64,000 nt of DNA from Synechococcus sp. PCC 7502. GTDB taxonomy: Bacteria > Cyanobacteriota > Cyanobacteriia > Pseudanabaenales > Pseudanabaenaceae. Where the stretch lies: positions 1,022,394 through 1,086,393 of the forward strand of contig NC_019702.1 of NCBI RefSeq assembly GCF_000317085.1. Direction: 5' to 3'. Shown piece after piece: positions 3,920 through 25,957 of the stretch (the first letter of the stretch is position 1; each line of letters opens with the position of its first letter). The translations under genes and the position numbers were made by a program. A model generated the notes under the pieces. It searched no databases. It saw only the letters and a program-made list of their open reading frames with translations, and was not told the DNA's origin.

Positions 3920-4354
3920 TTAATCTTGAATATATGTTTGATTTTGACGTAAAGCCCACTCTGCCTTTTGTGCCTCCCTGCCTATATAGGCGGCATGATC
4001 CAGCATGGTCACTGGGGGTATAGAACTATTTTCAAAAATTTCCACACATAATTGTTTTGCGGTATATGCCTGAAATACCCTAGTCGGTTCCCGTTTAACT
4101 TGTCCTTTAGCGGGAATCACCTTGCCAGTTTCTGGATCGGTGGCTAACCCTTGGGCGTTGATCTCGTTAGTAAAGTGCTTGGCAAAAATTAGCTTTTGAA
4201 TTGGATCGATATAGATAATAAAATAGCCCGCCGTATCCAGTGCTATAAACCGTTTTGACAGTTCCGCATCAATTTGATCAATGTTTTCATCAATATTTTG
4301 ATTGTGCTTAATGACAATTTGGTTCGGCACTAATGTTTCGGGTGGAGTGGGCAT
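3920..4354 (-). CDS. DUF4346-like conserved cyanobacterial protein
   Basis: 144 residues, soluble, no signal peptide. The core, from about residue 25, reads as a compact alpha/beta domain (AGYFIIYIDPIQKLIFAKH, then a C-terminal LDHAAYIGREAQKAEWAL helix). From memory this matches the DUF4346 family, found alone or attached to dihydropteroate-synthase-like proteins; the assignment has not been checked by search and the biochemical role is unknown. It is divergent from purN with a 42-base spacer and follows the same direction as prmA, whose start is 50 bases away. Confidence 0.7.
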   Translation of the reverse strand: MPTPPETLVPNQIVIKHNQNIDENIDQIDAELSKRFIALDTAGYFIIYIDPIQKLIFAKHFTNEINAQGLATDPETGKVIPAKGQVKREPTRVFQAYTAKQLCVEIFENSSIPPVTMLDHAAYIGREAQKAEWALRQNQTYIQD

Positions 4355-9747: not shown

Positions 9748-10842
9748 ATGCCCGCTCCCTATCTTCTTAGCAAGCTCAAATCCGTAGAGCAAACCTTTAA
9801 TGAACTGACCCGTCGCATGGGTGATCCTGATGTTGCGAAAGACCCTTCTGAATTTCAGCGCATCGCCAAAGCCCGTGCATCTTTAGAGGAGACTGTCCAA
9901 ACTTTTGATACCTTGCGGAAAGCGGAAACTGATCTACAGGAATCTGAGCAAATTCTCAAAGAGTCCAATGATCCTGAGTTAAAAGAAATTGCGTCCTTAG
10001 AGATTGAAGAGCTAAGAGCTAAGTTAGAACATTTAGAAGAGCGGCTAAAATTACTGCTTTTACCCCAAGACCCCAATGATGATAAGAATATCATGCTGGA
10101 AATTAGGGCTGGTACTGGTGGTGATGAAGCTAGTATTTGGGCGGGAGATTTACTCAGGCTCTATTCCCGCTATGCCGATCGCCAAGGTTGGAAAGTAAAA
10201 CTAGTCAGCGAATCCATTGCCGAATTGGGTGGTTTTAAAGAAGCTGTGTTAGAAATTCAAGGCGATCGAGTTTATAGCAAGCTGAAATTTGAGTCAGGGG
10301 TGCATCGAGTGCAACGAGTCCCTGCCACGGAGGCATCGGGTAGGGTGCATACTTCTACAGCTACAGTCGCCGTTATGCCCGAAGTAGATGCGGTGGAAGT
10401 GCATATTGATCCCAATGATATTGAGTTAACAACCATTCGCTCAGGCGGTGCGGGCGGACAAAACGTGAACAAAGTGGAAACTGCGGTGGATTTAATGCAC
10501 AAACCCACAGGGATTCGGGTTAAGTGTATGGAAGAGCGATCGCAACTGCAAAACCGAGAACGGGCAATGCAGATTCTGCGGGCAAAACTGTATGAAATTA
10601 AAATGCAGGAACAACAGGATGCCGTAACGTCAATGCGGCGATCGCAAGTTGGAACTGGTGCTAGATCAGAAAAAATTCGTACCTATAACTATAAAGATAG
10701 TCGCCTTACCGATCATCGTCTCAATCAAAACTTTACCCTAGCTAGTATTTTAGATGGGGATTTAGAAGAAGTAATTCAAACCTGCATTTCTCAAGATCAA
10801 CAGGAACGCTTACAAGAACTTGCTACTTCTATGGGTGAATAG
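9748..10842 (+). CDS. prfA: Peptide chain release factor 1
   Basis: Recognises UAA and UAG stop codons and triggers peptide release. The GGQ peptidyl-hydrolase motif is in [10 protein letters not shown], and the RF1 tripeptide PAT ([10 protein letters not shown]) is present instead of the SPF of RF2. I take the ATG at 9748 (364 residues, [17 protein letters not shown]), because the extra 14 residues from a TTG at 9706 do not resemble the family. The gene follows rpmE and precedes the gene-poor start of the restriction-modification island. Confidence 0.96.
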
Positions 10843-11055
10843 TCGGCTTTATTGATCAGAGCCTTATTCCATAGGATATTTGCAGGTATTGCTAGTTGCC
10901 TGATCCCTGAGGTGATGCAAAATCATTCTGAATTTATTTTTGCTGGGTTCAGCTACTTTCTTCTGTTTCTAAGCATTAGTTTTGCAATATTGCTCTGCAT
11001 TTTTCCGTGTTATACCCCGTATAAGGATGTTATCCAGAAAAATTCTGCCTAGTAC

Positions 11056-11067
11056 ACTAAATAATTG
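11056..11067 (+). repeat. Left copy of 12-bp direct repeat flanking the R-M island
   Basis: ACTAAATAATTG occurs here and again, exactly, at 13479-13490, on the two sides of the methyltransferase/endonuclease pair and the attC-like structure. Such a pair could be a target-site duplication or the trace of recombination between short homologies. It is AT-rich, so chance is not excluded. Confidence 0.45.
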
Positions 11068-11078
11068 TTTTACTCGAC

Positions 11079-11133
11079 AGTTTCCGTATAATCACCTTGT
11101 ATTGGGTAGTTATACAGAAAGTTTCAGTATAAT
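11079..11133 (+). promoter_or_regulatory. Twin promoter-like elements upstream of the R-M genes
   Basis: AGTTTCCGTATAAT (11079-11092) and AGTTTCAGTATAAT (11120-11133) differ by one base and are 41 bp apart, close to four helical turns. Each ends in TATAAT, a perfect sigma-70 type -10 box. They may be tandem promoters or paired binding sites for a regulator. The start codon of the methyltransferase is about 170 bases downstream, so a long leader would result. Confidence 0.4.
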
Positions 11134-11229
11134 ACTTAGGTAGCTTAACCCTCGGGGGAGTCGTTATGGAGGGCATGCTCACTCCAATCAATTCATAAGA
11201 TCAAAGTTAAGATTTGTAAGCTGCTTGTA

Positions 11230-11297
11230 TTAAAGAAGTTCGGATACTAGCCGATTGCAGTATTCTTATCTCTATTTGTTGACGGATACTTCTTTAA
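11230..11297 (+). promoter_or_regulatory. Spaced inverted repeat just before the methyltransferase start
   Basis: TTAAAGAAGT at 11230-11239 and its exact reverse complement ACTTCTTTAA at 11288-11297 bracket about 48 bases, ending four bases before the start codon. CGGATACT also occurs as a direct repeat just inside both arms. The arrangement could fold the leader mRNA over the start region or form a two-site operator for autoregulation of the methyltransferase. Functional evidence is lacking. Confidence 0.4.
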
Positions 11298-11301
11298 ACA
11301 C

Positions 11302-12162
11302 ATGGTCAAGATTGAACAGTACGAGGACAATGAGCATATTCTATTTCATGGCGATGCCCTACATACTTTGTCTAGTAAAGTTCCCTCTGAGTTTGTGGAT
11401 CTTATTTTTGTTGATCCTCCCTACAACATAGGAAAGCGATTTTCAAATTTTTACGACAAATGGGAATCTGAAGAAGAATATGCGAAGTGGGCATATAAAC
11501 TGCTTGATGAATGTCTTCGAGTGTTGAAGCCAAATGGAAGTTTGTATGTCATGACAAGCACCCAAGCAATGCCGTACTTTGACCTTTACTTAAGACAAAG
11601 AATGGTAATTCTTAGTCGAATTGTTTGGCATTATGATAGTTCTGGAGTTCAAGCAACAAAATATTTTGGCTCAATGTATGAGCCTATACTTCACTGTGTC
11701 AAAGATAAGAATAATTACATTTTTAATTCAGAAGATATTAAGATAGAAGCAAAGACAGGTGCACAACGAAAATTAATTGACTACAGAAAAGCAATTCCAA
11801 GCCAATACAGTACAGAAAAAGTGCCCGGTAATGTATGGTATTTTCCACGTGTAAGATATCGGATGGAAGAATATGAAAATCATCCTTCGCAAAAACCCGA
11901 ATCATTACTAGAGAGAATTATTCTTGCAAGCACTGGTAAGGGTAACATTGTGCTTGATCCATTTGCAGGAACTTTTACTTCGGCTGCTGTAGCAAAGCGT
12001 TTAGGACGAAATTCAATTAGCATTGAATCTCAAGAAGAATATCTGAAAGTTGGTCTTAGGCGAGTTTTGGGATGGCAAGAGTACAAAAAGGAAAAACTAT
12101 TGCCTCCATGTAAGAAGAATACTAGAAAGAATAAGAACGGACAAAAAATTAACGTAATATAG
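11302..12162 (+). CDS. Site-specific DNA methyltransferase, beta type (N6-adenine or N4-cytosine)
   Basis: 286 residues. The catalytic motif IV DPPYN is at 38-42 and comes before the SAM-binding motif I (DPFAGT, 219-224), the order of beta-class amino-methyltransferases; HPSQKP at 194-199 is the matching motif X. DPPY-type enzymes methylate the exocyclic amino group of adenine or cytosine; DPPYN is most often adenine. Target sequence cannot be read. The next gene starts just behind it with a ribosome site (AGGAGAG) overlapping this stop codon, so the pair is probably translationally coupled. The gene lacks HIP1 sites and is more AT-rich than its neighbours, suggesting acquisition. Confidence 0.92.
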   Translation: MVKIEQYEDNEHILFHGDALHTLSSKVPSEFVDLIFVDPPYNIGKRFSNFYDKWESEEEYAKWAYKLLDECLRVLKPNGSLYVMTSTQAMPYFDLYLRQRMVILSRIVWHYDSSGVQATKYFGSMYEPILHCVKDKNNYIFNSEDIKIEAKTGAQRKLIDYRKAIPSQYSTEKVPGNVWYFPRVRYRMEEYENHPSQKPESLLERIILASTGKGNIVLDPFAGTFTSAAVAKRLGRNSISIESQEEYLKVGLRRVLGWQEYKKEKLLPPCKKNTRKNKNGQKINVI

Positions 12163-12175
12163 GAGAGCATTTTTG

Positions 12176-13333
12176 ATGCCGATAGTACAGCATGAGTTCA
12201 CAAGCAAGATTGTTGAAATTCTAAATTCTCATTTTCCTAATCAGGGAGTTACAGTTCTGAATTCTAGTGAGTTATTACAGTATCTAAACATTAAAACAAA
12301 AGCTGCTAATCGAGGCTCAAAATCACGAGCGGGGTTTGCAAATCACTATGCTATTTATGTTCTAGTTGAAGACTATCTCAATAATGAATTTCATATTCGA
12401 GGTGGGTATGATGATTATCAAGGTGCTCAGTTTGTCACACTTTTTCGTAGACAGAGAGAGCTTCCATTTGGCAATAAGCTACAAAATCACGCACTAAATC
12501 ATCGTCTGAATGAAGAATTTAAGAAATACTTCCCGACAATATCCTATGTGCCGGTAATAAGAGATGCTACAACAAATAGATATTGGATCAACGAAAATCT
12601 TATTAAAATTTCAGTTGGTGGAAATCAAATAAATATTGCTGAAGCTGTAAAGAACATTATTGATGCTTACGTGCAAGCACGGAGAGAGTCGTTTAGTGAC
12701 TTCATGATCTACTGCCAGCAAATGATCGATATCCAACAGCAAGAGCCTCAGCGGGCTCTTGAATTCATTCGAGGTTTGCTAAGACCAAATATCGATGCAA
12801 GAGTTTTTGAAATTGTGAGCTATGCAATTTTAAAGGAATACTATGGCGATCAAAAAATTTACTGGGGATGGTCACCTGATGAGCTAAATGTTGAGTATTT
12901 GATTTTATATAAAACTGGTCGCACAAATGCGAATGATGGAGGAATAGACTTTGTAATGAAGCCTCTGGGACGATTTTTTCAGGTAACAGAAACTATTGAC
13001 GCTGGAAAATATTTTTTAGATATCGATAAAGTGCAAAGATACCCTATAACCTTTGTTGTAAAAACTGAACAGACGACTGAAGAAATCTTAGATAAGGTTG
13101 AGGAACAAGCTGCGGCAAGATATAGCATCAAGGCTATTGTTAGAAGGTATATGGAATCCATAGAAGAAGTCGTAAATATTCCAGAACTAATGGATCGTTT
13201 TAATTCAGTTTTACAACAAGGCAAAGGAGGTGCCGTTATCGAAGAAATAGTTTTACAGAGTCGTGTTGAATTCAATGTAGAGGCAGAGGAACAGGACGTT
13301 CTCATCTATGGAGATACAGTAGACGATGATTAA
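12176..13333 (+). CDS. Probable type II restriction endonuclease partner (Mrr/PD-(D/E)XK-like)
   Basis: 385 residues from the ATG at 12176, eight bases after AGGAGAG. I do not recognise a named family. The C-terminal half has what looks like a PD-(D/E)XK core of the Mrr flavour: a helix Glu (ARVFEIVSYAIL, near residue 212), then NDGGIDFVMK with Asp near 258, then FFQVTE where Mrr-type enzymes have Q-x-K. The expected lysine is replaced by Glu, so the active site is either a variant or inactive. The N-terminal half is probably the DNA-recognition part. Position directly behind a methyltransferase is the main reason for the call. No HIP1 site in the gene. Confidence 0.65.
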   Translation: MPIVQHEFTSKIVEILNSHFPNQGVTVLNSSELLQYLNIKTKAANRGSKSRAGFANHYAIYVLVEDYLNNEFHIRGGYDDYQGAQFVTLFRRQRELPFGNKLQNHALNHRLNEEFKKYFPTISYVPVIRDATTNRYWINENLIKISVGGNQINIAEAVKNIIDAYVQARRESFSDFMIYCQQMIDIQQQEPQRALEFIRGLLRPNIDARVFEIVSYAILKEYYGDQKIYWGWSPDELNVEYLILYKTGRTNANDGGIDFVMKPLGRFFQVTETIDAGKYFLDIDKVQRYPITFVVKTEQTTEEILDKVEEQAAARYSIKAIVRRYMESIEEVVNIPELMDRFNSVLQQGKGGAVIEEIVLQSRVEFNVEAEEQDVLIYGDTVDDD

Positions 13334-13340
13334 TATTCAC

Positions 13341-13430
13341 GCCACCTAACACTGCGTTGGTGCGGACGGAACAGAGGTTATCGGTGAGAGTTCAAGGTTA
13401 TTTGCCGCCGCACAACTTCACCGTTATATC
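13341..13430 (+). repeat. attC-like imperfect hairpin behind the restriction gene
   Basis: Left arm CCTAACACTGCGTTGGTGCG (from 13345, continuing GACGG) and right arm CCGCCGCACAACTTCACCGT (from 13405, continuing TATA) are imperfect reverse complements around a roughly 35-base loop. The layout matches an integron attC: R''-like ACCTAAC, inner L''/L' boxes with GTTGGTGCGG against CCGCACAACT, and an R'-like GTTATAT. attC sites sit at the 3' end of gene cassettes, which is where this lies relative to the R-M pair. No integrase is in the window, and a stand-alone cyanobacterial hairpin repeat is an alternative. Confidence 0.45.
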
Positions 13431-13478: not shown

Positions 13479-13490
13479 ACTAAATAATTG
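13479..13490 (+). repeat. Right copy of 12-bp direct repeat flanking the R-M island
   Basis: Exact second copy of ACTAAATAATTG (first at 11056-11067). It lies 48 bases beyond the attC-like hairpin and about 100 bases before ftsX; HIP1 sites resume immediately after it (13534). The repeat pair therefore coincides with the limits of the HIP1-free segment. Confidence 0.45.
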
Positions 13491-13592
13491 AGCCATAATA
13501 ACTGATTATAATTTTTCTCTTTGTAACTAGAGCCGCGATCGCTATACTCATAATTAGTGTCAACACTGGCTAGTAAACAATTTTTTAAGCAA

Positions 13593-25741: not shown

Positions 25742-25857
25742 TCAACAGAAAAATCTTAAAGTAAGCATTAATCGATTATGACAATGTTTATGGCAATGTT
25801 AAGTTAAAAAATCATTCATTCCAAAAAGTCACCGCCTGCTATGGGTTATTATTGGGA

Positions 25858-25941
25858 AACGCTAGGAGTGTCTGGTTTAATTTCCAGACTGAGATAACAT
25901 CCTTAGAACCTGTTCGGCTCACACCGGCGTAGGAAAGCAAA
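25858..25941 (+). promoter_or_regulatory. TPP riboswitch (THI element) upstream of thiC
   Basis: The conserved blocks of the thiamin pyrophosphate aptamer are present in order: a P1/P2 start with CGCTAGGAGTGTCTG, the pyrimidine-sensor block CAGACTGAGATAACA, the junction CCTTAGAACCTG, and the pyrophosphate-sensor block ACACCGGCGTAGGAAAGC. The thiC start codon is 20 bases downstream, so translational control by masking of the ribosome site is likely; no terminator hairpin with a T-run is visible between. Confidence 0.95.
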
Positions 25942-25957
25942 CTATAGAGAATCATAA

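Follow-up and report, generated by a model that had tools for sequence, protein, structure and literature searches.

The type II restriction-modification (R-M) gene pair that stands before an attC-like hairpin in this cyanobacterial genome is most probably a two-gene cassette of an integron relic, which would have been captured and integrated behind an attI site before the integrase gene, intI, was lost; we give this reading a probability of about 0.83. The window, that is, the whole stretch of DNA that we analyzed, is 64 kb long (G000:C3:1022394-1086393) and positions refer to it unless a contig or locus is named. From its sequence we interpret the unit as a single-cassette integron that lacks intI, i.e., a SALIN with an attI-like end.

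Locus and R-M genes

In the window, the methyltransferase gene, the endonuclease gene and the hairpin are bracketed by prfA, which ends at 10842, and ftsX, which starts at 13557. The features of the unit are:

11003..11144, + strand: attI-like region in which imperfect palindromes of the TTATACnGAAAnTTTCnGTATAA type occur three times (about 11029-11054, 11069-11095 and 11108-11134) and which has the core ACTTAG|GTAGC at 11134-11144
11140..13423, + strand: predicted gene cassette with putative boundaries; it would extend from the junction with the attI-like core on its left as far as the G of R' in the attC on its right
11302..12162, + strand: DNA adenine methyltransferase, N6_N4_Mtase family (NF008572, YhdJ-like); PF01555 at 1e-57, NF008572 at 481.5 bits (over the cut-off), PADLOC MTase_II
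12176..13333, + strand: type II restriction endonuclease, the partner of the methyltransferase, with its ATG at 12176; PADLOC REase_II PDLC03455, 665.5 bits
13344..13429, + strand (the bottom strand folds): attC site; R'' 13344-13350, L'' 13356-13369, variable loop, L' 13405-13416, R' 13423-13429
13359..13366, - strand: two bases left extrahelical when the bottom strand folds, a T facing A13366 and a C facing G13359, with six bases between them, taken from the fold

Judged by these family matches, the two genes are predicted to form a type II R-M system of known families, which presumably serves ordinary phage defence. The order of methyltransferase and endonuclease is kept in relatives, and the endonuclease has no sequence match in Pfam, NCBIfam or the PDB. 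Upstream of the methyltransferase start an inverted repeat around AAAGAAG...GGATAC (11232-11299) is possibly an operator of the R-M genes, and a consensus promoter scan of this upstream region returned no promoter. Elsewhere in the window, a TPP riboswitch (Rfam RF00059) lies at 25854-25952.

The attC site

The preliminary description had proposed an attC-like hairpin at the 3' end of the R-M pair, and this is confirmed, coordinates included: the site at 13344-13429 begins 10 bp after the endonuclease stop and has the same orientation as the genes, as expected in a cassette. Its boxes are R'' ACCTAAC (13344-13350), L'' GTTGGTGCGGACGG (13356-13369), L' CCGCCGCACAAC (13405-13416) and R' GTTATAT (13423-13429). 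Compared with the core motifs of attC sites (PMC3053210), R'' matches RYYYAAC and R' matches GTTRRRY at 6/7 positions, and the length of 86 bp falls inside the 57-141 bp range given in the same work (PMC3053210). L'' and L' are complementary and, when the bottom strand folds, leave a T and a C unpaired on the same side, in the T-N6-C geometry tested in PMC3053210; placing the C opposite G13360 instead of G13359 is an equally good alternative. The plain folding energy of the hairpin is unremarkable (z from -0.9 to -1.7) because the loop is large. A strict attC grammar, which requires TAAC, a helix of three segments interrupted by two bulges, and GTTA, matches once in the 64-kb window and never in 40 shuffled windows, so that the arrangement of these elements is far beyond chance; as the grammar was written after the site had been seen, these counts measure its rarity and are not an independent prediction. 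Over 18 related sites, 96.5% of the cells are paired and 7 are compensatory, above all shuffles, and since some of these sites are closely related we use this as supporting evidence only. Conservation among the copies ends at TAAC and GTTA.

Scoring with an attC covariance model had been proposed as a check, with the absence of a score as the result that would speak against an attC, and this result did not occur. Model R2, trained on 24 attCs from six other cyanobacterial genomes, in regions with an intact or near-intact intI and with the window excluded, gives the site 77.6 bits (E 5.8e-15 for the genome) and ranks it first genome-wide; because its training sites were chosen with a model that had already seen the window, R1, only the parameters of R2 are held out and the model is not wholly independent. 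R1 itself, which had the site in its training, scores it at 108.2 bits. Rfam, at gathering and at E-value threshold, holds nothing relevant at the hairpin, and there was no match to the site in phages by BLAST or to its pattern in viral contigs. Anatomy and model score together make the hairpin at 13344-13429 look like a genuine attC of an integron.

The left end and the integrase remnant

Directly upstream of the R-M genes, the stretch 11003-11144 looks like an attI. By blastn it aligns with DNA immediately 5' of intI in seven other cyanobacterial genomes, three of which have a full-length intI without internal stop (L154, L155 and L153), one a single intI match over model positions 10-292 with one stop (L128), and three truncated or broken copies (L131, L133 and L134). 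Its core, ACTTAG|GTAGC, compares with ACATAG|TTAGC in integrons with intI. A weight matrix that left out the window and included three copies from the same genome gives 35.1 bits at 11108, the next best position in the window reaching 14.1; with a matrix built from integrons of other genomes only, the site scores 17.2 and is again the top of the window, but this value falls within the range of the shuffled maxima, 11.3-17.5, and is of borderline significance for 64 kb. The position of the stretch directly before the R-M genes adds weight to the call.

If the attI-like core marks the left end, the cassette would be 11140-13423. The exact left core expected for a cassette, GTTAGGTG, is absent at this end; against the core site G|TTRRRY, the attI-like TAG|GTAGC at 11137-11144 differs from GTTAGC by one change. 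TTAGGT at 11136, tried as a left core, did not exceed chance expectation (P 0.185). The unit is also flanked, at 11056-11067 and 13479-13490, by a 12-bp direct repeat, ACTAAATAATTG, which is weak evidence and could be chance.

One possible option for the left end is that a lone cassette was inserted off-target at a secondary site of the attG type and that the likeness of its left flank to attI is incidental. Off-target activity of IntI is known (PMC10127599), lone cassettes integrate at attG sites according to Loot et al. (2024) as cited in PMC12901181 and PMC12444791, and four attCs of this same genome gave no attI-like match in the stretches scanned. Yet the flank in question matches the intI-adjacent DNA of seven genomes, with the terminal palindrome and the core included, and we consider insertion at an attG unlikely.

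The claim of the preliminary description that no integrase lies nearby is true inside the window, but a TIGR02249 search found a C-terminal intI fragment at C3:1020230-1020412, which lies upstream, about 2 kb from the window and about 15 kb from the attC. In its full extent (C3:1020176-1020412; L043:12177-12413) the fragment joins residues 33-50 to residues 261-319 of the IntI of Kovacikia, having lost about 200 residues in between, and is 88% identical to that protein over 59 residues. It adjoins smc and DDE transposase remnants and is, as its sequence indicates, a pseudogene. A search of the genome for intI, also proposed earlier, found this fragment and no intact gene. There is no intI remnant directly upstream of the attI-like site, and where a complete integron has a functional intI adjoining attI, only the broken fragment some 15 kb upstream is found here. 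Because its strand is not that of a simple partner of the attI-like site at 11003, the fragment may come from another integron copy.

The mechanism that we propose, as the simplest account, is that a type II R-M operon was captured as a two-gene cassette with an attC of the cyanobacterial type, and that in an ancestor IntI recombined the folded bottom strand of this attC and so placed the cassette behind attI. The intI that belonged to this attI would since have been lost, a broken intI being left 15 kb away next to transposase remnants, and the attI-like stretch, the methyltransferase, the endonuclease and the attC would be what remains. Excision or re-integration of the cassette would then be expected only if an active IntI enters the cell. 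The earlier suggestion of a mobile cassette in a lone, CALIN-like setting is thus supported as far as the cassette is concerned, its past mobility being probable on this mechanism, and has to be modified for the setting, as an attI-like stretch precedes the pair and a dead intI fragment lies 15 kb away.

Other attC and attI-like sites in the genome

Further copies in the genome, which had been suggested as something to search for, do exist: over the whole genome R2 found six attC-like sites at E below 3e-4, plus two weak ones. Most of the further single sites lie right after ORFs:

C3:3103787, 2341637, 2915447, 1432596, 3095697 and 2351178, and C1:12228: further single attC-like sites, of which 2351178 and C1:12228 are weak

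Those examined are mostly 3' of ORFs and in cassette orientation. One of the genes before them is reverse-transcriptase-like, lies in two frames and matches RVT_1 weakly; others code for a TOTE-domain protein or for a ParE-like toxin, the latter next to a small partner gene, and further ones are short ORFs that match nothing in Pfam. In one unit no ORF of at least 50 aa lies between the attI-like stretch and the attC. The reverse-transcriptase-like gene, at L164:7013-8754, appears as two overlapping ORFs before a single attC. Attached attI-like stretches were found at two further attCs of the genome and, at two more places, stretches of this kind without a detectable attC. The latter, C3:3444025-3444083 and 2531984-2532034, are followed by ORFs of 221 and 115 aa, and no attC was found near them within the stretches searched. 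Altogether the genome has six or more single attCs in dispersed places, and its attI-like stretches number about five.

One possibility is that units of an attI and one cassette, without intI, are scattered over the genome and were spread as such, perhaps by an IntI acting in trans, and that the R-M unit is one of them. We regard this as improbable. If such attI-like relics are truly dispersed without intI, their mode of spread becomes a testable question; in other genomes an attI-like stretch is rare at single attCs.

A comparison for an empty site near the single attC by dnaG showed none. At the R-M unit, none could be shown against the only congener because gene order there differs on both sides, prfA being followed by ugd and ftsX preceded by ispH; in the further members of the family that were tested, neither prfA-ugd nor ispH-ftsX is conserved.

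Origin of the R-M pair

Another hypothesis accepts the attC as genuine but not the R-M genes as its cassette: they would have arrived beside an attI-attC remnant in some other way, such as after deletion of the original gene or by insertion between the two sites. Nearly all relatives of the pair are without attCs: among the 80 fetched from the genome collection, 79 had no convincing attC nearby, the sole exception being a locus of Ca. Parabeggiatoa (L200), from which we conclude that the pair is not normally a cassette. (Near one relative, L088, R1 gave a weak match of 17 bits that R2 did not confirm.) Nucleotide similarity to relatives spans just the two genes, 11287-13333, and the left core is imperfect. 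Against this, the 10-bp gap between the endonuclease stop and the attC is as short as in other single cassettes of this genome, the same pair family lies between attCs in L200, and an unrelated methyltransferase pair in Kovacikia bears the same attC subtype. Weighing these points, we find a separate arrival of the R-M genes quite unlikely and retain their capture as a cassette.

Distribution among Cyanobacteria

A search with the attC pattern found it in 29/386 sampled Cyanobacteria, a reversed control pattern being nearly silent, and R2 has matches in 93/386 genomes and 55/143 genera; an intI over the family cut-off is present in 22 of the 386. The fetched loci that adjoin intI carry ordered arrays of attC-like sites, nearly all in one orientation. 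Dispersal of the hairpin as a repeat unrelated to cassettes had been named beforehand as grounds for rejecting the attC, and from these matches the repeat is indeed dispersed, but together with integrons: because its copies sit in arrays beside intI or right after ORFs, it appears to be related to cassettes. That the hairpin is a palindromic repeat or MITE-like cyanobacterial element without any link to integrons is hardly credible, for although near-identical copies occur across many cyanobacterial genera and the majority have no intact intI nearby, such a reading is contradicted by recognition with a model trained on intI-adjacent array attCs alone, by the arrays with their nearly uniform orientation, by conservation that stops at the two core ends and by the place of most copies of this genome 3' of ORFs. 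The distribution suggests that integron activity has commonly left lone cassettes behind in the phylum, and several of those found here carry defence or toxin-antitoxin-like genes.

Comparison with known systems

Several elements of this locus belong to known kinds. R-M systems in cassettes have been described (PMC12444791), as have attCs of cyanobacteria (PMC8352920), and lone cassettes are likewise familiar; the scattered attI-like relics without intI are less ordinary. SALIN and CALIN, in IntegronFinder terms, denote a single attC or a cluster of attCs without an integron-integrase (PMC12690207, PMC8618304). The unit resembles these in having one attC behind its genes and no functional intI nearby, and differs in the attI-like stretch that precedes its cassette; the label is applied here from our own models.

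For a cassette of two R-M genes, which the preliminary description had considered unusual, we found two parallels. Plasmid pB of Kovacikia minuta (NZ_CP083584.1) has an annotated, complete integron integrase gene, and next to it, oppositely oriented, are a gene for a C5 methyltransferase and, overlapping it, a hypothetical gene; the latter has no Pfam or PADLOC match and would be the restriction partner if the two are, as we suppose, an R-M pair. The 3' attC of this first cassette is 88% identical to that of the window, the same value as for IntI over its 59 residues, and four more model matches follow in the same orientation. The likeness thus lies in attC, in IntI and in a first cassette made of a methyltransferase and a second gene, whereas the intI of Kovacikia is intact, its attCs form an array of five or more, and its methyltransferase is of the C5 type and unrelated to that of the window.

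The second parallel, in Ca. Parabeggiatoa (NBMI01000303.1, L200), has the R-M pair family of the window exactly between two attC-like sites, one at 2088-2142 and the other at 4205-4276; the left and right ends of the unit carry the matching core sites GTTAGGTT and AACCTAAC, respectively. Both are two-gene units of the same methyltransferase-endonuclease family (the endonuclease is 71% identical) with a 3' attC; the attC of L200 is of another, shorter type and attCs stand on both sides. In the endonuclease tree the window groups with Cyanobacteria and L200 with Gammaproteobacteria, and because of this separation the two captures were probably independent. A complete R-M operon is thus tied to an integron attC in a cyanobacterium, and the same R-M family is a two-gene cassette in a gammaproteobacterium.
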